Positions 1,524 through 14,096 of a DNA stretch of 64,000 nt are shown one piece after another. The stretch's first letter is position 1. Each line of letters begins with the position of its first letter. The notes beneath the pieces were generated by a model. It was not told the origin of the DNA and searched no databases. It worked only from the letters and a program-made list of their open reading frames with translations. The translations under genes and the position numbers were made by a program. The stretch is from Deltaproteobacteria bacterium (GTDB taxonomy: Bacteria > Desulfobacterota > DSM-4660 > Desulfatiglandales > Desulfatiglandaceae), in assembly GCA_019309145.1 (NCBI GenBank), contig JAFDGR010000004.1, positions 1-64,000 on the forward strand. The letters are read 5' to 3'.

Positions 1524-2529
1524 AAAAGTCCTGATTGTCGGTGCAGGCATCGCCGGTCTCACCGCCGCCCTTGAGCTCGGCAGAAGAGGTGTTTCTTCCT
1601 TGGTGATCGAAAAAGAGGGAAGCATCGGGGGGCACGCCGGCACCTACGCCTGCAAGGCAGTGGACGGCCGTTGCCAGAAATGCGGGGCGTGCCTGATCCG
1701 GGACGCCATACGGGACATCAAGGAAACCCCGGAGATCGGGATATCCCTGGAGACAAGTCTTGCTGCCCTCCATCGGGAGGAAAAAGGGATTGTCGCCCGC
1801 CTCAAAAAAGGTGAAAAAGAGACTCCAGCCCGTTTCTCCGCGCTTGTCCTGTGCCATGGGTTTCAGCCTTTTGATCCGGCGAAAAAATCCAATTTCAGGT
1901 ACGGCGAGATTCCCAATCTCATCACGGGTGTTGAGCTCGAGCAAATGATGAAAGAAAAAGGGAATGTGTTTCGTCCCTCTGACGGGAAGCCCGTGAAAGA
2001 CATGGCGTTTGTCCAGTGTGTGGGAAGCCGGAATCCCGCCCTGGGACGGCCGTATTGCTCCCAGGTATGCTGTGGCTATGCCCTTCGCATGGCCAGGCAG
2101 ATAAAGACCGGGAACCCTTCTACCAGCATCACCTTTTTTTACATGGACGTGCAGACCTTCGGTCGGGATTTTGATCGTATGTTGTGGGAATTCAGGGACG
2201 CCTTCTACTGGATACGGGAAATCCCCGGGGATTTTTTCAATACAACCGGGGACCGGGTGGGTGTGGTCGTAGAGGATGAAGGGGAAATAGAAGAGATGAC
2301 CTTTGACCTCATGACCCTTTCAGTGGGCATGGGACCTTCCTCTGATCAGCCGGTTTTTGAGGAATGGCTGGATTTGAGCCTGGGCCCTGAGGGGTTTCTG
2401 GTTTCACCCAACCAGCATGGCGTATTCGTCGCCGGCAGTGCCACGGGTCCCATGAGCATCCCGGATACCGTTGCCAATGCGCGAGCAACCGTCGCCCACG
2501 TGATGGACTACCTGGAGGAAACCTCATGA
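1507..2529 (+). CDS. HdrA/QmoA-like FAD protein
   Basis: VLIVGAGIAGLTAALELGRRG Rossmann motif; FVQCVGSRNPALGRPYCSQVCC. Confidence 0.82.
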   Translation: MVEKSKKVLIVGAGIAGLTAALELGRRGVSSLVIEKEGSIGGHAGTYACKAVDGRCQKCGACLIRDAIRDIKETPEIGISLETSLAALHREEKGIVARLKKGEKETPARFSALVLCHGFQPFDPAKKSNFRYGEIPNLITGVELEQMMKEKGNVFRPSDGKPVKDMAFVQCVGSRNPALGRPYCSQVCCGYALRMARQIKTGNPSTSITFFYMDVQTFGRDFDRMLWEFRDAFYWIREIPGDFFNTTGDRVGVVVEDEGEIEEMTFDLMTLSVGMGPSSDQPVFEEWLDLSLGPEGFLVSPNQHGVFVAGSATGPMSIPDTVANARATVAHVMDYLEETS

Positions 2530-4091
2530 ATCCTTTGCCTGCGGAGAAAAAGGTCGCAGTCCTTGGAAATGGGGGAACCGCTTGCCGGGTAAGCGAGGAG
2601 TTCCTCAAGAGGGGCTTTCCGGTCCTGCTGGTCATGCCTCAGGAAACGGATGCCAACGAAGTCCCTCCAGGCACGGAGTGTATGCAGGGTGCCGCCCTTG
2701 GTTCCGTGAAAGGGCAGGTGGGTGATTTTTCCCTTACAATCCAGGTTGAGAACAAAAGAGAGGAACATCGTGCCGGTTTCATCGTGGTCGCTTATGAGTC
2801 CGTCCGCGAACCGGTGTATGATATCCTTGGGATGCCTCCGCACGATCGCATCTGGAGTCTTTCCCGTCTTGAAAAGCAACTGGCTGATGATGGTTTCCCG
2901 GAAAAATACGGGAAAGTCCTTTTCCTTGACCGGCTGGATGGGGTGAATACCGTGGCAGGGAGCGAGCGCCTCCTGAACCTGGTAGGAACGCTCCAGGAAG
3001 AATACGAGACCGCGTGCTGTCTTCTTACCTGCCAGGTGAAAGTGGCGTCACCCGGGCTTGAAATGCTGTACGGAAGGATACGGGACAATGGGTGTTTTGT
3101 TGCCAGGACAGATCTCTTGAGCCTGGAAGTGGGCTCGAAAGGAGTGCGCGTCCGGTTTGATGATATTGTGTTGGACGAGGTCCTGAATGTGTCCGGGGAC
3201 CTGCTCGTTGTGGCGGAAAGGGAACGCCCCGCACCGGAGCTGGAAAGGCTGGCTGAAGTCCTCAGGCTGGAAACGGATCAGGAGGGATACCTCCAGGGAG
3301 ACAACCTCCTGCGGGTCCCCTGCCTGACCAATCGTCGCGGGGTTCTCGTGGCGGGTGGGAGCGTTGCCGGATTGAGCGAATGGGAAAGAGCGCAGAATAT
3401 CCCGTCCGTGGTTGAGGAGGTGAGTAGTCTTTCCAAGTGGCTCGATGAAGTAATTCCGGTTGAGCAGATCATTTATGACCGGGACCGTTGTGCCACCTGC
3501 CTCACCTGTTTCAGGGTATGCCCCCATGGGGCCATCCTTTTTACGGACAAACCGCACTTCCAGCACCTGGCCTGCCAGCGGTGCGGAATCTGTACGAGCC
3601 TGTGCCCCAATGAAGCCATCGAGCTTTCAGGATTTGAAAAGCCGTCCTTTTTTGAGCGGTTATTTCCCGAAAAATCCGCCGCCGAACAGGCAGGGTCTAC
3701 GGCATTGACCGGATTCGTGTGCCAAAGATCTGTTGACCTGGTGCGCCAATACCTGGAGGAGGATGATCCGGTATTTCATGCTGTTCGATGGATCGAGGTG
3801 CCGTGCGCCGGGACCCTCCGGAGCCAGTATGTCCTTGAGACCCTGGCCAGGCCGGAAGGTGCTGACGGAGTACTGGTGGTTTCGTGCCACCGGGACAACT
3901 GCCGGTCCGGCGATGGAACCATCAGAGCGGCAAATATAGTCCAACAGGTGAAGGGCCTCTTGAAAACCCTGGAAATGGACGAGGGGCTGGTGGAGCATAT
4001 CCTCCTGGCCCCGAACGAGGGGGAAAGATTGAAACGGGAAGTGACGCGGATTCAAGGGGAAGCGAAAAAAAGCTTGACAGATCGGAAATAG
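2526..4091 (+). CDS. QmoB-like fusion: degenerate HdrA flavin domain, 2x[4Fe-4S] ferredoxin, MvhD-type C-terminal domain
   Basis: CATCLTCFRVCPHGAI / CQRCGICTSLCPNEAIE; C-terminal CQRSVDLVRQYL..VPCAGTLRSQYVLETL..VLVVSCHRDNCRS. Confidence 0.78.
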   Translation: MNPLPAEKKVAVLGNGGTACRVSEEFLKRGFPVLLVMPQETDANEVPPGTECMQGAALGSVKGQVGDFSLTIQVENKREEHRAGFIVVAYESVREPVYDILGMPPHDRIWSLSRLEKQLADDGFPEKYGKVLFLDRLDGVNTVAGSERLLNLVGTLQEEYETACCLLTCQVKVASPGLEMLYGRIRDNGCFVARTDLLSLEVGSKGVRVRFDDIVLDEVLNVSGDLLVVAERERPAPELERLAEVLRLETDQEGYLQGDNLLRVPCLTNRRGVLVAGGSVAGLSEWERAQNIPSVVEEVSSLSKWLDEVIPVEQIIYDRDRCATCLTCFRVCPHGAILFTDKPHFQHLACQRCGICTSLCPNEAIELSGFEKPSFFERLFPEKSAAEQAGSTALTGFVCQRSVDLVRQYLEEDDPVFHAVRWIEVPCAGTLRSQYVLETLARPEGADGVLVVSCHRDNCRSGDGTIRAANIVQQVKGLLKTLEMDEGLVEHILLAPNEGERLKREVTRIQGEAKKSLTDRK

Positions 4092-4103
4092 TAGCAGATT
4101 GTA

Positions 4104-4256
4104 ATGCGAAAATTCAATATTGAACGCCTTTTTGAAAAAAATATGAAAAACGTGGTGAACAACATTATCGTCATTATCAGCGCAACAGGGATACTCCTGC
4201 CCCTGTTGCTCCTTGTCGTCGTGGGACTCAAACCTCCCGGCCTGATAATGACTTAG
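4104..4256 (+). CDS. Putative branched-chain amino acid attenuator leader peptide (50 aa)
   Basis: Read directly: MRKFNIERLFEKNMKNVVNNIIVIISATGILLPLLLLVVVGLKPPGLIMT; below the ORF-track cutoff; Ile/Leu/Val runs just upstream of alternative hairpins and the cimA-leu-ilv operon. Confidence 0.75.
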   Translation: MRKFNIERLFEKNMKNVVNNIIVIISATGILLPLLLLVVVGLKPPGLIMT

Positions 4257-4290
4257 TTTTTTTACGTTTCGCTAAATCCGTTATCAGGCC
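4239..4290 (+). promoter_or_regulatory. Putative antiterminator pairing
   Basis: GGCCTGATAA (4239-4248) is the exact reverse complement of TTATCAGGCC (4281-4290); the second arm is shared with the terminator. Confidence 0.7.
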
Positions 4291-4314
4291 TGACCTGATA
4301 ACGGATTTTTTTTT
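4274..4314 (+). terminator. Intrinsic terminator (attenuator) upstream of cimA
   Basis: 15-bp perfect stem AAATCCGTTATCAGG / CCTGATAACGGATTT, 5-nt loop, 9-T run. Confidence 0.88.
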
Positions 4315-4342: not shown

Positions 4343-5917
4343 ATGCAAAGAAAAATCATCCTTTATGACACCACATTGCGAGACGGCACCCAGGGTGAGC
4401 AGGTGAATCTCTCGGCCGAAGACAAGCTCAGGATCGTTCAGAAGCTTGACGCTTTCGGTATCCCCTATGTTGAAGGGGGCTGGCCGGGCTCCAACCCCAA
4501 GGATGCCAGGTTTTTCGAGCTTGCCCGAAACACCCGTTTCACGAATACCCGCCTCACAGCGTTCGGGAGCACCCGCAGACCCGGGACGACCCCGGAACGG
4601 GATGAGAACATCCAGGAACTGCTGAGAACGGGAACCGAAACGGTGTGCGTTTTCGGCAAATCCTGGGATCTCCATGCACGGGAGATCCTCGGGGTTTCCC
4701 TGGAAGAAAACCTGGCCATGATAGAAGAGAGCGTGGCGTATTTGAAAGAAAAAGGCCTTGAAGTGATCTATGATGCGGAGCATTTTTTCGACGGATACAA
4801 GCGAAACCCCTCCTATGCCATGGAAACGGTGCATGCCGCCGAGCGAGCGGGAGCGGACATCATCGTTCTGTGTGATACAAACGGAGGATGTATGCCCCGG
4901 GAAATGGAGGAGATCCTGCAGCAGACCATGCCGGCGGTTACATCCCCGGTGGGCATTCATGCCCACAACGATTGCGGATTGGCCCTGGCAAACTCCCTGG
5001 TGGCCGTTGAATCGGGAGCGACCATGGTCCAGGGAACCATCAACGGGTACGGGGAACGGTGTGGAAACGCGGATTTGATTGCAGTGATCGGCAACCTCCA
5101 GGTGAAAATGGGGTGCCCCTGTCTTGCAGAGGATAAACTGAAGCAACTGACCGAATTGTCACGCTACGTGAGTGAAGTCGCGAATATCCCTCCCCTGAAC
5201 CAGCGTCCCTTCGTGGGAAAGAGCGCATTTGCCCATAAGGGGGGCGTTCATGTCAGTGCCATTATGAAAAACCCGGCGGCCTACGAGCACATGGACCCGG
5301 AAGCGATTGGAAACCGCAGGCGGGTTTTAGTTTCAGATCTCTCCGGCAAGAGCAATATCGCGTACAAGAGCAGTGAGATGGGGCTCCGGCTTGGGGGAAA
5401 CGGGTATACCAGCCAGAAAATTGTAAACGAGATCAAGCGTCTCGAGAACCTGGGCTACCAGTTTGACGCGGCAGAAGGATCGCTCGAGCTGCTCATCAAA
5501 CGGGTGACGGGTCAATTTGAAGATCCTTTCAGGTTGGAATCGTTCCGGGTCACCATTGAAAAGAATCATGCGGGACCCAGCACCTCCCAGGCGACCATCA
5601 AGATCTCCGTGGGGAATGAGGAGGAGATTACGGCAGCGGAAGGAGACGGGCCCGTGAACGCCCTGGACAATGCTTTGCGGAAGGCCCTGACCAAATTTTT
5701 CCCGCAGGTCGAGGAAATGGGGCTGGTGGACTTCAAGGTGCGGGTTATTGATGCCGGCGGCGGAACCGCGGCCAAGGTCAGGGTGCAGATTGAATCCAGG
5801 GATGCAAAAGAGATCTGGTCGACCATCGGGGTGTCTGAAAACGTTATTGAGGCGAGCTGGCAGGCCCTGGTGGACAGTGTGCAGTATAAGCTGTCCAGGG
5901 AATCCAGTGGTGGATAG
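4343..5917 (+). CDS. cimA: (R)-citramalate synthase
   Basis: ILYDTTLRDGTQGEQVNLSAEDKLRI; two LeuA-like domains; first gene of leu/ilv operon; start moved to ATG 4343 after ggag. Confidence 0.88.
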   Translation: MQRKIILYDTTLRDGTQGEQVNLSAEDKLRIVQKLDAFGIPYVEGGWPGSNPKDARFFELARNTRFTNTRLTAFGSTRRPGTTPERDENIQELLRTGTETVCVFGKSWDLHAREILGVSLEENLAMIEESVAYLKEKGLEVIYDAEHFFDGYKRNPSYAMETVHAAERAGADIIVLCDTNGGCMPREMEEILQQTMPAVTSPVGIHAHNDCGLALANSLVAVESGATMVQGTINGYGERCGNADLIAVIGNLQVKMGCPCLAEDKLKQLTELSRYVSEVANIPPLNQRPFVGKSAFAHKGGVHVSAIMKNPAAYEHMDPEAIGNRRRVLVSDLSGKSNIAYKSSEMGLRLGGNGYTSQKIVNEIKRLENLGYQFDAAEGSLELLIKRVTGQFEDPFRLESFRVTIEKNHAGPSTSQATIKISVGNEEEITAAEGDGPVNALDNALRKALTKFFPQVEEMGLVDFKVRVIDAGGGTAAKVRVQIESRDAKEIWSTIGVSENVIEASWQALVDSVQYKLSRESSGG

Positions 5918-5998: not shown

Positions 5999-6133
5999 AG
6001 TGCTTGTGGAAAAGCCGCCCTTGAGGAGGGCATTGCGGGTTGCCGGGTGCTGGTGCAAGTGAGCCGTTCATAGGATCAACCGGCAAACGGGCAATCGGAT
6101 CAACCATGAAAGAACAAGGAGGGAGGTTATTCC

Positions 6134-7678
6134 ATGAGTGAACGAGTCATAATCTTTGATACAACGCTCCGGGACGGAGAGCAGTCTCCGGGCGCAAGCA
6201 TGAATGTGGCGGAAAAAATCCGTCTTGCCGTCCAACTGGAGAAACTGGGGGTGGACGCCATTGAGGCGGGCTTTCCTGCGGCCTCGGCAGGCGATTTCGA
6301 GGCGGTAAAACTCGTCTCTGAGAAGATCCGCAATGCCCAGGTCACGGCCCTGGCCCGGGCAGCCGGCAGGGATATCGACCGGGCATGGGGGGCCATCAAA
6401 AAGGCCGCTCATCCAAGAATTCATACCTTTATCGCAACCTCAGACATCCACCTTGAACATAAGCTCAGGATGACCCGTGAACAGGTGATCGAAGCGGCTG
6501 TGGATGCCGTACGGCATGCTGGAAATTATACGGAAAACATTGAGTTTTCAGCAGAGGATGGTTCCAGGAGCGACCCTGATTTTCTCTGTCGCGTTTTTGA
6601 GGCCGTGATCGATGCAGGGGCCACAACCGTGAACATCCCGGATACAGTCGGCTATGCACTCCCTGATGAGTTTTTCAGGCTCGTAAGTCATGTGAGAAAC
6701 AATACGTCGAATATTGAAAAAGCGGTTTTGAGTATCCACTGCCATGACGACCTTGGCCTGGCAACGGCAAACACCCTGGCCGGTCTGCGGGCAGGGGCCC
6801 GCCAGGCGGAAGTGACCGTAAACGGGATCGGTGAGCGGGCAGGCAATACTTCTCTGGAAGAAGTGGTCATGAGCCTTTATACACGCAAGGACATGGTGGG
6901 CCTTGAAACAGGCATTGATACCCGCCAGATCCATCCCACGAGCCGGCTTGTGAGCATGGTTACCGGGATCGTGGTACAACCCAACAAGGCTGTGGTGGGG
7001 GCAAATGCCTTTGCCCATGAGGCGGGCATTCACCAGGACGGTGTGCTCAAGAACAGGATGACTTACGAAATCATGGATCCCGAGACAGTGGGGCTTTCAA
7101 AAAACCGCCTCGTGTTGGGCAAACACTCCGGGAAGCATGCTGTGCAGAAGAAACTCGAGAACCTGGGGCATGAGCTTTCTACAGAGGAACTGGCGAGATT
7201 TTTCCAGAAATTCAAGGAGCTGGCGGACAAACGCAAGGAAATCCTGGATGAGGATATCGAGGCCCTTGTGGCGGAGGAGATCTTACGGGTACCGGATACT
7301 TACGAACTGGATTACCTGAATGTGGTGAGCGGCACGGTTGCCGTTCCCACCGCCACGGTGAAACTGAAAATCAGGGGTGAAGAGGTCCAGGGGGCCGGGT
7401 TTGGTGTGGGACCCATTGATGCTGCCTTTAACACCATTGCCAAGATGACCGGGTCCAGGTGCAAGCTCATGCGGTTCTCGGTCAATGCCATAACCGGCGG
7501 TATGGATGCCCAGGGCGAGGTCACCGTGCGGCTCCAGGAAAACGGGCTCCTGGCCCTGGGAAAAGGGACCGACCCCGATATTATTACCGCCAGCGCCAAG
7601 GCATATATTAACGGTCTCAATCGCCTTGAGTATATGAAGAAAAACCCGGTGCTGTCACCCACGGACAACGTTGTTTGA
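6134..7678 (+). CDS. leuA: 2-isopropylmalate synthase
   Basis: [32 protein letters not shown]-terminal regulatory domain. Confidence 0.95.
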
Positions 7679-7740: not shown

Positions 7741-9006
7741 ATGCCCATGACAATTACAGAGAAGATCCTGGCAGCGCACGCGGGAAAGGAATCGGTCCGC
7801 CCCGGTGATCTGGTCCAGGTGGATGTGGACCTGGCCCTGGCAAATGATATCACTGCCCCGCTGGCTATTGGGGTGTTCCAGGAGCTTGGTTGGAAAAAGG
7901 TTTTTGACCGGGAAAAGATCGCGATGGTCCAGGACCATTTTGTGCCGAACAAGGATATCCAGTCCGCCCAGCAGGTCAAGCTCATGAGGAGATTTGTGCA
8001 GGAGCAGGGAATCAGGCATTTTTTCGAGCTGGGGGAGACTGGTATTGAGCATGTGATCCTGCCGGAAAAGGGTCTTGTTTGCCCCGGTGACCTGGTTATC
8101 GGCGCTGACAGCCATACGTGCACCTATGGGGCATTGGGTGCCTTTTCCACCGGGATGGGGAGTACTGATCTCGGGGCTATCCTTGCCACCGGCTCAACGT
8201 GGCTGAAGGTGCCCGAGTCCATACGACTGGTGTATGAGGGAAATCTTGGCCCCTGGGTGGGCGGAAAGGACCTCATCCTGCATACCCTGGGGATTCTCGG
8301 GGTAGCAGGGGCGGTCTACCGATCGCTGGAATTTACGGGTGAAGGTGTTCGGCACTTGTCCATGGCGCATCGGTTTACCATGGCGAACATGGCCGTGGAG
8401 GCGGGTGCGAAAAACGGGATTTTCGGCGCGGACGACATTACTGCGGGCTATATGAAAGACCGGAGCAATCGCACCGGCTCTTTTCTCCGGAGCGATCCGG
8501 ACGCAGCGTATGTGCAGGAGATCCACGTGGCCCTGGACACCCTGGAACCGCAGGTGGCGATACCTCATTCGCCGGACAACGCCAGGCCCATCTCCGAAAT
8601 AGGTTCGGTCCGGCTGGACCAGGTCTTTCTGGGTTCGTGCACCAACGGGCGCCTGGATGACCTGCGGGAAGCGGCCGCTCTCCTGAAAGGACATAGGGTG
8701 GCGAGCGGCATCCGGTTCATCGTCATCCCGGGATCTCCGGCCATTTATCGGGAAGCCCTCCGGGAAGGGTTCATCGAGGTGTTCCTGGACGCGGGGGCGG
8801 TGATCGGTCCTCCGTGCTGCGGGCCCTGCCTGGGAGGGCACATGGGTATCCTGGCGGCCGGAGAAAAGGCGCTTTCCACGAGCAACAGGAATTTTGTGGG
8901 CAGGATGGGGCACCCGGAGAGTGAAGTCTATCTCGCGGGTCCCGCGGTTGCGGCGGCTTCTGCCATTGCAGGAGAGATTATTTCCCCGGCGGAAATAGGG
9001 TCGTAG
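7741..9006 (+). CDS. leuC: 3-isopropylmalate dehydratase large subunit
   Basis: MTITEKILAAHAG; GADSHTCTYGALGAFSTGMGSTD; FLGSCTNGR; GPPCCGPCLGG. Confidence 0.93.
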   Translation: MPMTITEKILAAHAGKESVRPGDLVQVDVDLALANDITAPLAIGVFQELGWKKVFDREKIAMVQDHFVPNKDIQSAQQVKLMRRFVQEQGIRHFFELGETGIEHVILPEKGLVCPGDLVIGADSHTCTYGALGAFSTGMGSTDLGAILATGSTWLKVPESIRLVYEGNLGPWVGGKDLILHTLGILGVAGAVYRSLEFTGEGVRHLSMAHRFTMANMAVEAGAKNGIFGADDITAGYMKDRSNRTGSFLRSDPDAAYVQEIHVALDTLEPQVAIPHSPDNARPISEIGSVRLDQVFLGSCTNGRLDDLREAAALLKGHRVASGIRFIVIPGSPAIYREALREGFIEVFLDAGAVIGPPCCGPCLGGHMGILAAGEKALSTSNRNFVGRMGHPESEVYLAGPAVAAASAIAGEIISPAEIGS

Positions 9007-9170
9007 GGAAAGCATGCTTCGTCAGGCACGAAAAAAGGTATCATATGCTGTGCCCTTATAGGTAGCCGTTGATTGAAGCATTTTGTGCCGGGGAATCAAG
9101 TTTTTTCATTTACTGAAGGATCCGGCAAGAGCTAGGGCGGGATTTTGGAATTTTTGGAGGTTGTTGGTTG

Positions 9171-9707
9171 ATGAAAATACAGGGAAGGGCATGGAAGGTC
9201 GGAGATCACGTGGATACAGACCTGATTATCCCCGCGAGATTTCTTAATATATCTGATAAGAACGAATTAGCAAAACACTGTTTCGCGGACTTGAAACCGG
9301 ATTTTGTTGAAAGGGTATGTCCCGGGGATATCCTGGTTGCCGGGGTCAATTTCGGGTGTGGATCCTCAAGGGAACATGCGCCATGGGCCATGAAGCAAGC
9401 CGGAATAGGCGCGGTCATCGCCAAGAGTTTCGCGAGGATTTTCTACCGGAACGCTTTTAATATCGGGCTGCCCATCCTCGAGTCGGAAGAAGCACCGGAT
9501 CAGATTGAAGAAGGTGACGCACTGGCCCTGGATTTCTCCACCGGGGAAATCGTAAACGAAAACAGTGCAAAAAGATTCCAGGCAAGGCCGGTTCCCGCGT
9601 TCATACGTTCCATCATAGATGCGGGTGGCCTAGTGGAGTATGTGAGAAAGACGCAGGGCCAAGGGGCTATCCGCCGCAGTAGATTGCCTGTGAGAAATGC
9701 GGGCTAA
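9171..9707 (+). CDS. leuD: 3-isopropylmalate dehydratase small subunit
   Basis: GRAWKVGDHVDTDLIIPARFL; NFGCGSSREHAPWAMKQAG. Confidence 0.94.
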   Translation: MKIQGRAWKVGDHVDTDLIIPARFLNISDKNELAKHCFADLKPDFVERVCPGDILVAGVNFGCGSSREHAPWAMKQAGIGAVIAKSFARIFYRNAFNIGLPILESEEAPDQIEEGDALALDFSTGEIVNENSAKRFQARPVPAFIRSIIDAGGLVEYVRKTQGQGAIRRSRLPVRNAG

Positions 9708-9720
9708 AAAGGAGATTGGC

Positions 9721-11409
9721 ATGAAAACGTTCACAGGAGCGGAGATCCTGCTCAAAAGTTTGAAGGAAGAAGGGGTTGATACCATTTTCGGGTATCCCGG
9801 GGGAGCAGTCATTGATATTTATGATCAGCTCGCCAAAAGCGACATACGTCATATCCTGGTTCGTCATGAACAGGGAGCCGTCCACGCAGCCGACGGGTAT
9901 GCGCGGGCATCGGGGAAAGTGGGAGTGTGCCTGGCCACGTCCGGTCCAGGTGCTACCAATACGGTGACCGGCATTGCCACGGCCTATTCGGATTCCATCC
10001 CCATTGTCGTGCTGACCGGACAGGTGCCGAGGACACTCATCGGGAACGACGCATTTCAGGAGGTGGATATTGTTGGGATCACCCGGCCCTGTACCAAGCA
10101 CAACTACCTCGTGACCGATGTCAATGACCTGGGGAGGGTGATCAGAGAGGCCTTCTACCTGGCCCGGTCGGGAAGGCCGGGCCCGGTCCTGGTGGACCTT
10201 CCAAAGGATCTTATGAGCATGCAGGGGCCATATCATCAGGGCAGGGATGTCACCCTGAAATCCTATCAACCAACGTATAAACCGCACCTGAAACAGCTCT
10301 CCAAGGTGATCGACCTCATAAAAGAGGCCAAAAGGCCCATGATACTCGCGGGGGGAGGTGTGGGGCTCTCAAAGGCATCCGACGGATTGAGAAAACTGGC
10401 AAGAAAGATCGTGGCGCCCGTCAGCACGACACTCATGGGCCTGGGCACTTTCCCGGCCAGTGATCAACTCTGGCTGGGTATGATAGGAATGCACGGGACC
10501 TACCGGGCCAACATGTCCACTGGGGCATGTGACCTGCTTATCGCCGTGGGTGTTCGGTTTGATGATCGGGTAACGGGAAAAACCGATGCCTTTGCTTCCC
10601 AGGCGAAGATTGTTCATATCGATATTGATCCCACCTCCATCAGGAAAAATATCCCGGTCACCATCCCTGTGGTCGGTGATTGCGGGTTGACCCTAGAGAT
10701 CCTGAATGATTTGCTTGAGAAAGAGACCATGAACGGGATCAGGAAGGTGCGGGAGCCCTGGCTTCAGCAGATCGAGGAATGGAAGAGCACGAATCCTCTC
10801 GCGTATGAACAACAAGAGGTCACCAAGCCCCAGTTTGTGATTGAGAGGCTTTACCGGCTTACCAGGGGGGAGGCGATCGTGGCAACAGAAGTGGGGCAGA
10901 ATCAGATGTGGGCGGCCCAGTATTACCACCTGGACGCTCCCCATTCATTCATTACCTCGGGAGGGCTGGGATGCATGGGTTTTGGTCTCCCCGCGGCCAT
11001 CGGCGCCCAGGTCGCGAACCCGGGAAAGCTGGTGGTGGATATCGCCGGAGACGGGAGTATCCAGATGAACATCCAGGAATTGGCCACGGCAGTACAGTAT
11101 AAACTGCCGGTCAAGGTGGTGATCCTCAATAACCAGTACCTGGGCATGGTGAGGCAGTGGCAAGAGCTCTTCTACGAAAAATGCTACGCATGCACCCACA
11201 TGGAGCATGCGCCCGATTTCGTAAAACTGGCCGAGGCCTATGGGGCGGCAGGATTGCGGGCCACAACACCGGACGAGGTGGAACCGGTACTGAAGGAGGG
11301 GCTTGCCCTGGAAGGACCCGTGCTGATGGATTTTCACGTGGAAAAGGAAGAAGGGGTTTATCCGATGGTTCCGGCGGGTGCCCCCATTACGGAGATGCTG
11401 CTGGTGTAG
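9721..11409 (+). CDS. ilvB: Acetolactate synthase large subunit
   Basis: FGYPGGAVIDIYD; VRHEQGAVHAADGYARASGKVGVCLATSGPGATN; ThDP motif GDGSIQMNIQELATA; start ATG 9721 preferred. Confidence 0.95.
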   Translation: MKTFTGAEILLKSLKEEGVDTIFGYPGGAVIDIYDQLAKSDIRHILVRHEQGAVHAADGYARASGKVGVCLATSGPGATNTVTGIATAYSDSIPIVVLTGQVPRTLIGNDAFQEVDIVGITRPCTKHNYLVTDVNDLGRVIREAFYLARSGRPGPVLVDLPKDLMSMQGPYHQGRDVTLKSYQPTYKPHLKQLSKVIDLIKEAKRPMILAGGGVGLSKASDGLRKLARKIVAPVSTTLMGLGTFPASDQLWLGMIGMHGTYRANMSTGACDLLIAVGVRFDDRVTGKTDAFASQAKIVHIDIDPTSIRKNIPVTIPVVGDCGLTLEILNDLLEKETMNGIRKVREPWLQQIEEWKSTNPLAYEQQEVTKPQFVIERLYRLTRGEAIVATEVGQNQMWAAQYYHLDAPHSFITSGGLGCMGFGLPAAIGAQVANPGKLVVDIAGDGSIQMNIQELATAVQYKLPVKVVILNNQYLGMVRQWQELFYEKCYACTHMEHAPDFVKLAEAYGAAGLRATTPDEVEPVLKEGLALEGPVLMDFHVEKEEGVYPMVPAGAPITEMLLV

Positions 11410-11446
11410 CACTACGGTGAGAGGACGGGTAAAGGAGAAGAAAGAG

Positions 11447-11944
11447 GTGAATAGGGAAGAAGGCGAAAGGCATATCCTGTCCATCCTGGTGGAAAACCAG
11501 CCCGGCGTGCTGTCCAGGGTGGCGGGACTTTTCAGCGGGAGGGGCTTTAATATTGAGAGTCTGTGTGTGGCAGAGACAATGGACCCCGATGTCTCCAGGA
11601 TTACCCTGGTGACCATTGGGGATATGGGGGTGGTGGAACAGGTAAAGAAACAGCTGAACAAGCTGGTTGATGTGTTGAAGGTTGTTGATTTTACCGGTGA
11701 AAATTTTGTGCAGCGGGAAATGGCCCTGATCAAGGTTCGTGCGAAGCCTGAAAACCGTGCCGAAATTCTCCGGATGGTGGATATTTTCAGGTGCCGGATC
11801 GTGGATGTGGGGGCTGAATATTACACGGTCGAGCTTACCGGTGATGAAGGGAAGATGCGGGCATTCTTGAATCTCTTGAAGCCCATGGGAATGAAGGAAA
11901 TAGCAAGGACCGGGGCGTTGGCCCTGGCCCGGGAAAAAAAGTAA
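11447..11944 (+). CDS. ilvN: Acetolactate synthase small subunit
   Basis: HILSILVENQPGVLSRVAGLFSGRGFNIESL ACT domain; GTG start after aaaggag. Confidence 0.9.
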   Translation: MNREEGERHILSILVENQPGVLSRVAGLFSGRGFNIESLCVAETMDPDVSRITLVTIGDMGVVEQVKKQLNKLVDVLKVVDFTGENFVQREMALIKVRAKPENRAEILRMVDIFRCRIVDVGAEYYTVELTGDEGKMRAFLNLLKPMGMKEIARTGALALAREKK

Positions 11945-11954
11945 AGGAGTAATT

Positions 11955-13010
11955 ATGGCAGAAATAGATTTTGGTGGAGTGGTGGAAGAGGTCGTAACGT
12001 CGGAGGAATTTCCCCTTGCAAAGGCCCAGGAAGTCCTCAAGGATGAAACGGTTGCGGTCCTGGGATACGGCGTGCAGGGACCGGGGCAGGCCCTGAACAT
12101 GCGTGATAACGGCATCAGGGTGATCGTGGGTCAGCGCGAGGGAGGCAGTTCGTGGCAGCGGGCCATGGATGACGGCTTTATTCCCGGAGAGACACTCTTC
12201 CCGCTTGAAGAGGCGGCGAAAAAAGGCACCATCATACAATACCTGGTCTCAGACGCGGGACAGGTTGCCACGTGGCCGGCCATAAAAACGTGCCTGCAGT
12301 CGGGCGATGCGCTGTATTTTTCGCACGGATTCTCAATTGTCTACAAGGAGCAAACAGGGATCATCCCGCCTGCTGATGTTGATGTGATCATGGTGGCCCC
12401 GAAAGGTTCCGGTCGTACGGTCCGGGCCAACTTTCTAGAGGGAAGCGGCATCAACTCCAGTTACGCGGTTTTTCAGGATGCTACCGGCCGTGCTGAAGAA
12501 AGGACCCTGGCGCTTGGCATAGCGATCGGGTCAGGATATCTTTTTCCCACGACGTTTGAGAAGGAGGTACACAGCGATCTGACCGGGGAGCGGGGCGTCC
12601 TGATGGGGTGCCTGGCCGGCGTGATGGAGGCGCAGTACGAACTTCTTCGAAGGCACGGGCACAGCCCGAGCGAGGCATTCAACGAGACGGTGGAAGAGTT
12701 GACCCAGAGCCTGATCAGGCTGGTGGCGGAAAACGGGATGGATTGGATGTTCGCGAACTGCAGTACCACGGCACAGCGGGGCGCACTGGACTGGAAAGAC
12801 CGGTTCAAGGAGGCGGTCAATCCTGTTTTCGAAGAACTCCACCAGCGTGTTGTGTCCGGAGAGGAAACAAGGATTGTGCTTGAGGCCAACAGTGCACCCG
12901 ATTACCGCGTAGGACTTGAAAAGGAACTGGAAACCATAAGAAACTCCGAGATGTGGCGCGCAGGGGCGGCGGTCCGGGCACTCAGGCCGGAAAACCGGAA
13001 GAGGACCTAG
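11955..13010 (+). CDS. ilvC: Ketol-acid reductoisomerase
   Basis: VAVLGYGVQGPGQALNMRDNG; APKGSGRTVR; follows ilvN. Confidence 0.9.
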   Translation: MAEIDFGGVVEEVVTSEEFPLAKAQEVLKDETVAVLGYGVQGPGQALNMRDNGIRVIVGQREGGSSWQRAMDDGFIPGETLFPLEEAAKKGTIIQYLVSDAGQVATWPAIKTCLQSGDALYFSHGFSIVYKEQTGIIPPADVDVIMVAPKGSGRTVRANFLEGSGINSSYAVFQDATGRAEERTLALGIAIGSGYLFPTTFEKEVHSDLTGERGVLMGCLAGVMEAQYELLRRHGHSPSEAFNETVEELTQSLIRLVAENGMDWMFANCSTTAQRGALDWKDRFKEAVNPVFEELHQRVVSGEETRIVLEANSAPDYRVGLEKELETIRNSEMWRAGAAVRALRPENRKRT

Positions 13011-13013
13011 CCG

Positions 13014-14096
13014 GTGGAAAGGGAAACGAAGAAGGATAGAACCTATGCCATCGGCCTTATCCCCGGCGACGGGACCGGACCGGAAGTGGTGACCGAAGGC
13101 GTTAAGGTACTGGAGGCGATCTCAAATAGATTTGGAGTGGGATTTCAGTTCACAGCCTTTGACCTGGGAGGAGAAACCTACATGAGGGATGGGACCTTGC
13201 TGCCGGACCCGGTTGTTGAACAGTTGAGATCCCTGGATGCACTCTTTCTCGGCGCCATCGGACACCCCGATGTGAAACCCGGTATCCTGGAAAGGGGAAT
13301 ACTGCTGCAACTGCGTTTCGCACTGGATCTCTATATCAATCTGCGGCCGGTCGTCCTTTTTCCCGGGGTTTTTACTCCGTTGAAGAACAAAATGCCTGAA
13401 GATATTGATTTCATCGTCATACGGGAAAACTCTGAAGGGATGTATGCGGGGGGTGGTGGTTTTTTCAAGAAAGGCACCCCTGATGAAGTGGCTCTCCAGG
13501 AATCCGTCAATACCAGGAAAGGGGTGGAGCGGTGTGTCAGATATGCTTATGAATACTGCCGGAAAAGGGATCGGAAAAAACACCTCACCCTCTGCGCCAA
13601 GACCAATGTCCTGGCCTACGAATCTGACCTATGGTACAGGGTATTCCAGGAACTGCATGATTCCTATCCTGACGTGGAAATTGATTACCAGCACGTGGAT
13701 GCCCTCTGCATGTGGATGATAAAAAATCCTGAGCAGTTTGATGTGATCGTGACAAATAATCTTTTTGGAGATATTATCACGGATATCGGGGCTATTATCC
13801 AGGGTGGAATGGGAATCGCGGCCGGAGGGAACATCAATCCTGAAGGCAATGCCATGTTCGAGCCCATTGGCGGGTCGGCACCCAAGTATACGGGCCTTGG
13901 GAAGATTAATCCCATGGCCGCCATCTCGGCTGTGCAGATGATGCTCGATTACCTGGGAGAGGACACTGCTGCTCAAGCGGTTTTAGCGGCGATCAAGAAG
14001 GTTGTGAAAAATGATCTCCAGAGCCTCAGCGCCGGCAGGATGGGATATTCTACCAGCGAGGTTGGGGATCTGGTGGTAAGGGCCCTCACGGGGTAA
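13014..14096 (+). CDS. leuB: 3-isopropylmalate dehydrogenase
   Basis: IGLIPGDGTGPEV; NLFGDIITDIGAIIQGGMGIAAGGNINPEG; could be an isocitrate-dehydrogenase-type paralog but operon context favours leuB. Confidence 0.8.
   Translation: MERETKKDRTYAIGLIPGDGTGPEVVTEGVKVLEAISNRFGVGFQFTAFDLGGETYMRDGTLLPDPVVEQLRSLDALFLGAIGHPDVKPGILERGILLQLRFALDLYINLRPVVLFPGVFTPLKNKMPEDIDFIVIRENSEGMYAGGGGFFKKGTPDEVALQESVNTRKGVERCVRYAYEYCRKRDRKKHLTLCAKTNVLAYESDLWYRVFQELHDSYPDVEIDYQHVDALCMWMIKNPEQFDVIVTNNLFGDIITDIGAIIQGGMGIAAGGNINPEGNAMFEPIGGSAPKYTGLGKINPMAAISAVQMMLDYLGEDTAAQAVLAAIKKVVKNDLQSLSAGRMGYSTSEVGDLVVRALTG

Follow-up and report, generated by a model that had tools for sequence, protein, structure and literature searches.

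The window, by which we mean the whole stretch of 64,000 nucleotides that was analysed, raises the question of how an operon for the synthesis of isoleucine, leucine and valine is controlled by the DNA in front of its first gene, cimA, which provides the pyruvate route to isoleucine. Leader-peptide attenuation of branched-chain amino acid (BCAA) operons is textbook knowledge for enteric bacteria (ilvGMEDA, ilvBN and leuABCD), and a preliminary description had placed an attenuator of this type before an operon starting with citramalate synthase. The NCBIfam assignments agree with that placement, as the operon reads cimA-leuACD-ilvBNC-leuB, and these downstream genes synthesise the very amino acids that would be sensed:

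4343–5917, + strand: cimA, citramalate synthase, first operon gene (TIGR00977, 728 bits against a cut-off of 450)
6134–7678, + strand: leuA, above the NCBIfam equivalog cut-off
7741–9006, + strand: leuC, above the NCBIfam equivalog cut-off
9168–9707, + strand: leuD, above the NCBIfam subfamily cut-off and just below the equivalog cut-off
9697–11409, + strand: ilvB, NCBIfam match above cut-off
11378–11944, + strand: ilvN (open reading frame), NCBIfam match above cut-off
11955–13010, + strand: ilvC, NCBIfam match above cut-off
13014–14096, + strand: leuB-like dehydrogenase, NCBIfam match above cut-off

On comparative sequence grounds, we consider it very probable that the region upstream of cimA controls cimA-leuACD-ilvBNC-leuB as a ribosome-mediated transcription attenuator, by sensing charged tRNA-Ile, tRNA-Leu and tRNA-Val. 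The features on which this reading is based are:

4074–4102, + strand: predicted sigma-70 promoter (TTGACA at 4074–4079, 17-nt spacer, GATTGT at 4097–4102), with a predicted transcript start at about 4109
4104–4256, + strand: earlier, 50-codon version of the leader open reading frame (ORF), MRKFNIERLFEKNMKNVVNNIIVIISATGILLPLLLLVVVGLKPPGLIMT and stop, 50 aa; the extra 13 codons are probably untranslated
4143–4256, + strand: leader peptide ORF with the likeliest start, MKNVVNNIIVIISATGILLPLLLLVVVGLKPPGLIMT and stop, 37 aa; the start is aligned in the same genus and has comparable starts in relatives
4164–4178, + strand: control codons I, ATT ATC GTC ATT ATC (Ile Ile Val Ile Ile), mostly within arm 1
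4170–4180, + strand: arm 1, GTCATTATCAG, the Val/Ile control codons themselves; pairs with 4242–4252 (protector helix 1:2)
4182–4209, + strand: inner hairpin, 4182–4190/4201–4209 (GCAACAGGG...CCCTGTTGC), enclosed by helix 1:2
4191–4229, + strand: control codons II, rich in Leu and Val (ATA CTC CTG CCC CTG TTG CTC CTT GTC GTC GTG GGA CTC)
4239–4252, + strand: arm 2, GGCCTGATAATGAC; 4242–4252 pairs with arm 1 and 4239–4250 with arm 3; encodes the final leader codons, GLIMT
4279–4290, + strand: arm 3; pairs with arm 2 (antiterminator) or, within 4274–4288, with arm 4 (terminator)
4274–4314, + strand: intrinsic terminator, stem 4274–4288/4294–4308 of 15 bp, loop of 5, nine T at 4306–4314

Two elements of the preliminary description could be read directly from the DNA: GGCCTGATAA (4239–4248) is the exact reverse complement of TTATCAGGCC (4281–4290), and the 15-bp terminator with its nine Ts is present as it had been described. 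What that description missed were arm 1, the inner hairpin and the conserved promoter. Since arm 1 pairs with arm 2, the predicted protector (1:2), antiterminator (2:3) and terminator (3:4) helices make up the complete classical set of mutually exclusive pairings, which strengthens the classical attenuation logic. The calculated energies are −21.3 kcal/mol for the terminator and −20.9 kcal/mol for the antiterminator region. Control codons I are kept in relatives in the sequence alignment, and control codons II are placed between the 5' arm of the inner hairpin and arm 2.

The leader ORF at 4104/4143–4256 has never been annotated. A 50-codon reading frame is present as originally proposed; its start at ATG 4104 is doubtful, and ATG 4143, giving 37 codons, is the most likely start. 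We rejected ATG 4104 because it is located 5' of the predicted transcript start and therefore would not be transcribed, and because in the sister species of the same genus the first ATG is in another frame and TGA comes directly after it, while the second ATG (equivalent to 4143) opens MRNLVQNIIVIISATGILLPLLLLVVVRLKGPGLIMT and a stop. No strong Shine-Dalgarno sequence was seen before ATG 4143, and a BCAA leader lacking one has a precedent in C. glutamicum, according to a title cited in PMC10272879. The proposed overlap of the 10-mer at 4239–4248 with the end of the leader holds for the last codons (GLI) and fails for the stop, as the TAG (4254–4256) is located past the 10-mer.

The promoter was recognised by comparison of homologous leaders only; a sigma-70 consensus scan reported none, which we attribute to the weak −10 box (4097–4102), with only three of six consensus matches. 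TTGAC is present within 150 nt upstream of 122 of the 132 homologous elements, compared to 16.4 expected from shuffles, and most of the leaders that bear it have a −10-like box at a spacing of 16–18 nt. The 3' end of the ORF situated upstream (2526–4091) contains the predicted −35 box; the FlpD and 4Fe-4S domains of this ORF resemble those of heterodisulfide-reductase-type electron carriers.

Inferring from this layout where transcription starts, that the leader is translated, that ribosomes stall and in which direction the operon responds, we propose that RNA polymerase would start near 4109 and a ribosome would translate the 37-codon leader. If any of Ile, Leu or Val were short, the ribosome would stall either at the Ile/Val codons, where it would mask arm 1, or further on at the Leu/Val codons; the free arm 2 (4239–4250) could then pair with arm 3 (4279–4290) before arm 4 is made, the terminator would be blocked and transcription would enter cimA. 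With all three plentiful, a ribosome at the stop (4254–4256) would cover arm 2, and arms 3 and 4 would terminate transcription. If there were no translation, arm 1 would pair with arm 2 and the terminator would also form.

We compared this proposal with a footprint model in which the leading edge of the ribosome is 15 nt past the first P-site base. When the A site holds an Ile, Leu or Val codon at any position up to 4227, 9–10 of the 10 arm-2 bases are free in the model, and in this stalled state the antiterminator has a probability close to 1 as long as arm 4 has yet to be made. A ribosome at the codon at 4236, or at any later one including the stop, covers arm 2 and leaves no base free; only Lys and Pro codons are situated between these two positions. 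In folding equilibrium without a ribosome, helices 1:2 (0.98) and 3:4 (0.92) dominate the full transcript. Because the terminator beats the antiterminator at equilibrium, the antiterminator must win kinetically. The corresponding equilibrium at a point where arm 4 is still missing is ambiguous (P(1:2) 0.21, P(2:3) 0.78), so this state depends on helix 1:2 being the first to form. From the arrangement we predict multivalent control by Ile, Leu and Val, in line with an operon for the synthesis of all three. The originally suggested logic, in which stalling on Ile, Leu or Val codons favours the antiterminator, is thus supported by the footprint geometry, and also by the conserved pairings and by the agreement between codons and genes described below.

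Conservation of the ORF and of both pairings upstream of cimA in relatives had been named as a check, and this check was passed at the levels of both family and order. The family sample consisted of 46 genomes, with CimA homologues in 35 and readable cimA upstream regions in 30. A homologous terminator was found in 30/30 of these regions, and nearly all contain an I/L/V-rich ORF ending in ...PGLIMT and a stop, or similar; one region (L031) has diverged in sequence and retains the layout. In a MAFFT alignment of 29 family sequences from arm 1 to the T-tract, 95.7% of cells were paired for 1:2, the inner hairpin and 3:4 taken together, with 26 double-change cells compared to 7.2 in shuffled alignments, and for the antiterminator 91.2% were paired, with 11 double-change cells compared to 3.7. 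None of 500 shuffles reached either set of counts, these permutations ignoring shared ancestry, and when the helix registers were slid by 1–3 columns only 15–55% of cells paired. Taken singly, helix 1:2 had 93% of cells paired across the 29 sequences and the inner hairpin 96%, with double changes in 6 of its 11 pairs. Two pairs, 4239/4290 and 4240/4289, are exclusive to the antiterminator, being outside helix 1:2 and in the loop of the terminator, and they vary as GC, AU and GU. This covariation outside both 1:2 and 3:4 supports the antiterminator independently.

The order-wide set of 83 non-redundant elements gave a similar picture: paired cells amounted to 87.0% for 1:2 (25 double-change cells, 10.7 shuffled), 92.5% for the inner hairpin (41, compared to 11.3), 94.5% for the antiterminator 2:3 (15, compared to 4.5) and 97.7% for the terminator 3:4 (47, compared to 7.8). 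In the control in which 1:2 was slid by +1, the double-change count was as high as in the true register (27 and 25, respectively), but only 27.5% of cells paired. Since the Ile codons form arm 1, arms 2, 3 and 4 inherit the ATTATC/GATAAT pattern, and this sharing among the arms would explain the conservation of the terminator stem sequence across the phylum.

These data bear on the possibility that the leader acts mainly through cimA translation or mRNA stability, or through Rho, rather than through the intrinsic terminator. Such a route has a parallel in Streptomyces, in which candidate BCAA leaders, when mutated, did not behave as classical attenuators (PMC1262725). Here, a strong 15-bp stem followed by nine Ts is the best-paired helix order-wide, and the terminator ends 28 nt before the cimA start, with the cimA ribosome-binding region outside the structure. 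We therefore regard a non-terminator route as very improbable. If the terminator were controlled by an RNA sensor independent of translation (a riboswitch or T-box), with the ORF incidental, the leader would likewise be structured, with a terminator and an alternative pairing. Yet none of the 4227 Rfam families, T-box included, matched the window at the gathering threshold, on which basis known riboswitches, T-boxes and Rfam amino-acid leaders were rejected, and a permissive Rfam search of the leader (E up to 10) gave chance-level matches far below gathering, with no T-box among them. Moreover, there is no conserved single-stranded binding core beyond the coding arms, and the reading frame is open and I/L/V-rich in 118 leaders. 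An RNA sensor thus seems the least probable of the alternatives that we weighed, and an attenuator read by a translating ribosome is preferred.

The coding content of the leaders was analysed in a set of 132 distinct elements, of which 85 precede cimA, nine leuA and seven ilvB; another 12 precede genes read as ilvD, three of them confirmed by NCBIfam. The ORF is open from arm 1 to arm 2 in the 118 leaders, with a mean of 51% I/L/V compared to 14% in the other two frames, 170/236 of which contain a stop. Leader stops are mostly 2–9 nt past arm 2, and all six Leu codons occur. The mean codon numbers differ with the genes downstream: leaders before cimA with leuA have I 4.8, L 6.8 and V 2.9, those before cimA without leuA downstream have I 6.0, L 2.1 and V 1.2, leuA leaders have L 8.0 and ilvB leaders V 5.6. 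The Leu share is 0.46 before cimA with leuA and 0.24 before cimA without it (permutation P ~0.001, uncorrected for shared ancestry), and the Val share is 0.43 before ilvB and 0.15 elsewhere (permutation P ~5e-5, likewise uncorrected). Leader codons thus track the genes, with Leu before leuA, Val before ilvB and Ile before cimA alone. One genome (G037) is a natural experiment on this match, as its cimA leader is without most of the Leu run and its separate leuA has an attenuator of its own reading LLLSLLLGLLLL. Among codon differences in the Leu/Val run, 58% of single-base changes are synonymous, a moderate bias only, which we read as I, L and V codons interchanging and which we kept out of the main evidence.

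The codon–gene match also bears on whether the product of the ORF is a small hydrophobic (membrane) protein with a function of its own, with the terminator as the 3' end of its gene and the operon unattenuated. The peptide is hydrophobic, its core and C-terminus are conserved, and the terminator is directly 3' of the ORF, as would be expected for such a gene. However, the N-terminus is variable, the length and composition of the hydrophobic run vary according to which genes follow, and nearly all elements are directly before BCAA-related genes. The conserved C-terminal codons are those that arm 2 constrains, compensatory changes keep the competing helices, and Pfam and NCBIfam searches of the leader ORF gave no match. 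As what is conserved corresponds to the RNA arms and the gene content, and not to the core of a protein, a small membrane protein was rejected as the main role, and we would give this explanation very little weight relative to attenuation.

To follow the distribution of the element we used a covariance model, R1, as the search model. In the window's own genome it found one true copy, the remaining matches being the palindromic terminator and noise; minus-strand matches at the same locus were considered as a second element and rejected, as they also represent the palindromic terminator. In the order, probably Desulfatiglandales, 71 of 85 genomes and 45 of 47 genera carry the element (the class-level sample consists of the same 85 genomes), and in the phylum sample 44 of 395 genomes were positive, 28 of these outside the order. 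A terminator-pattern scan of named records gave 70 stretches, 69 of which have an R1 match at E <1e-6. Its carriers include strain NaphS2 (an unclassified deltaproteobacterium in NCBI), uncultured Desulfobacterium TRIP AH-1, a Desulfatiglandales MAG, Syntrophaceae/Syntrophales MAGs, one record labelled Aminicenantes and, from the window's genus, isolate B46_G9 (contig QMLQ01000065). The attenuator represents a conserved, previously uncatalogued family across largely uncultured sulfate-reducing relatives in the phylum Desulfobacterota. The record labelled Candidatus Aminicenantes (L128, DAOVIP010000061.1) has a typical attenuator of 132 bits before cimA, reflecting either transfer or a mislabelled or contaminated bin.

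This family, which is absent from Rfam, can be traced throughout the order and beyond it in other classes. With it, annotators can locate many leader peptides that have been overlooked, and BCAA operons can be predicted with DNA as the only input; the codon content of a leader can be taken to indicate the amino acids to which its operon would respond. Comparative predictions of the same element class, by similar reasoning, were reportedly made by Vitreschak et al. in 2004 and Lopatovskaya et al. in 2010. We found no description of the element in literature on attenuation in Deltaproteobacteria, Desulfobacterota, Geobacter or Desulfovibrio, although these two studies might list it, and nothing relevant in literature on citramalate with leader peptides.

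On every sequence-testable feature, the element belongs with the enteric BCAA attenuators, in keeping with the match to classical ilv/leu logic that had been noted for this locus. It shares with ilvGMEDA, ilvBN and leuABCD of E. coli and Salmonella an Ile/Leu/Val leader ORF and the 1:2, 2:3 and 3:4 helices with a T-run before the first gene, and with ilvGMEDA also multivalent control, which here is predicted. Unlike the enteric attenuators, it is of unrelated sequence and lineage, and its operon opens with cimA and gathers cim, leu and ilv genes. It also differs in that arm 1 consists of the Ile control codons themselves and arm 2 of the final codons, in that the terminator arms keep the ATTATC/GATAAT imprint of the Ile codons across the phylum, and in having a conserved inner hairpin within 1:2.

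Attenuation has also been considered in other lineages. PMC10272879, which cites E. coli ilvB attenuation, describes the ilvB-II (Corynebacterium), ilvB-OMG and Leptospira ilvB motifs, in which a BCAA-rich uORF before an ilv gene was read as attenuation. These are from other lineages and contexts (ilvB), and in our comparison, made through Rfam only, there was no match. In S. aureus, a combined ilv-leu operon has an Ile/Leu-rich leader peptide and a terminator, and mutants that lack the terminator or have a Leu codon changed to a stop were read as relieving repression (PMC5794164). The antiterminator proposed for S. aureus leaves the terminator stem intact and sequesters the U-tract (PMC5794164), whereas here arm 2 pairs with the left arm of the terminator, as in enteric attenuators.

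The family also points to unexpected regulon members, namely acyl-CoA dehydrogenase-Etf and VorB operons. In eight genomes (G001–G003, G056–G059 and G063), an attenuator with an I/L-rich leader (L118, L158, L083, L064, L184, L186, L190 and L191) is directly before an acyl-CoA dehydrogenase gene, which is followed by EtfB-EtfA wherever the contig was read further (operons L216, L217, L219 and L220). The two acyl-CoA dehydrogenases that were scored were both below all NCBIfam equivalog cut-offs. In a further genome, G046, two attenuators about 600 bp apart precede, in tandem, an operon for a 2-oxoacid:ferredoxin oxidoreductase of the VorB type (VorB scores 510 bits, with a cut-off of 399), the upstream leader being poorer in I/L/V:

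G046:C13, contig 5267–5431 and 6037–6201, − strand: tandem attenuators (L218 / L067)

IlvC above the TIGR00465 cut-off is missing in six of these nine genomes (G001, G002, G003, G046, G056 and G063, which are 63–89% complete), absences that could be explained by assembly gaps. VorB above its cut-off was found in six of the nine, all counts being from incomplete assemblies. Tentatively, and with more doubt than confidence, we suggest that the acyl-CoA dehydrogenase-EtfBA and VorB attenuators may mark a second BCAA route, in which branched acyl-CoAs would be reductively carboxylated when charged tRNA is scarce. If this is true, these anaerobes make valine, leucine or isoleucine from branched acyl-CoAs. 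In one of the acyl-CoA dehydrogenase attenuators (L083, G001:C109:1240-1455), arm 2 and the leader stop are tandemly duplicated, with GAAGCAAACTACCAGGCCTGATAATGTAATAGAGTTATAAAGTTAAT present twice, a possible intermediate in attenuator evolution.
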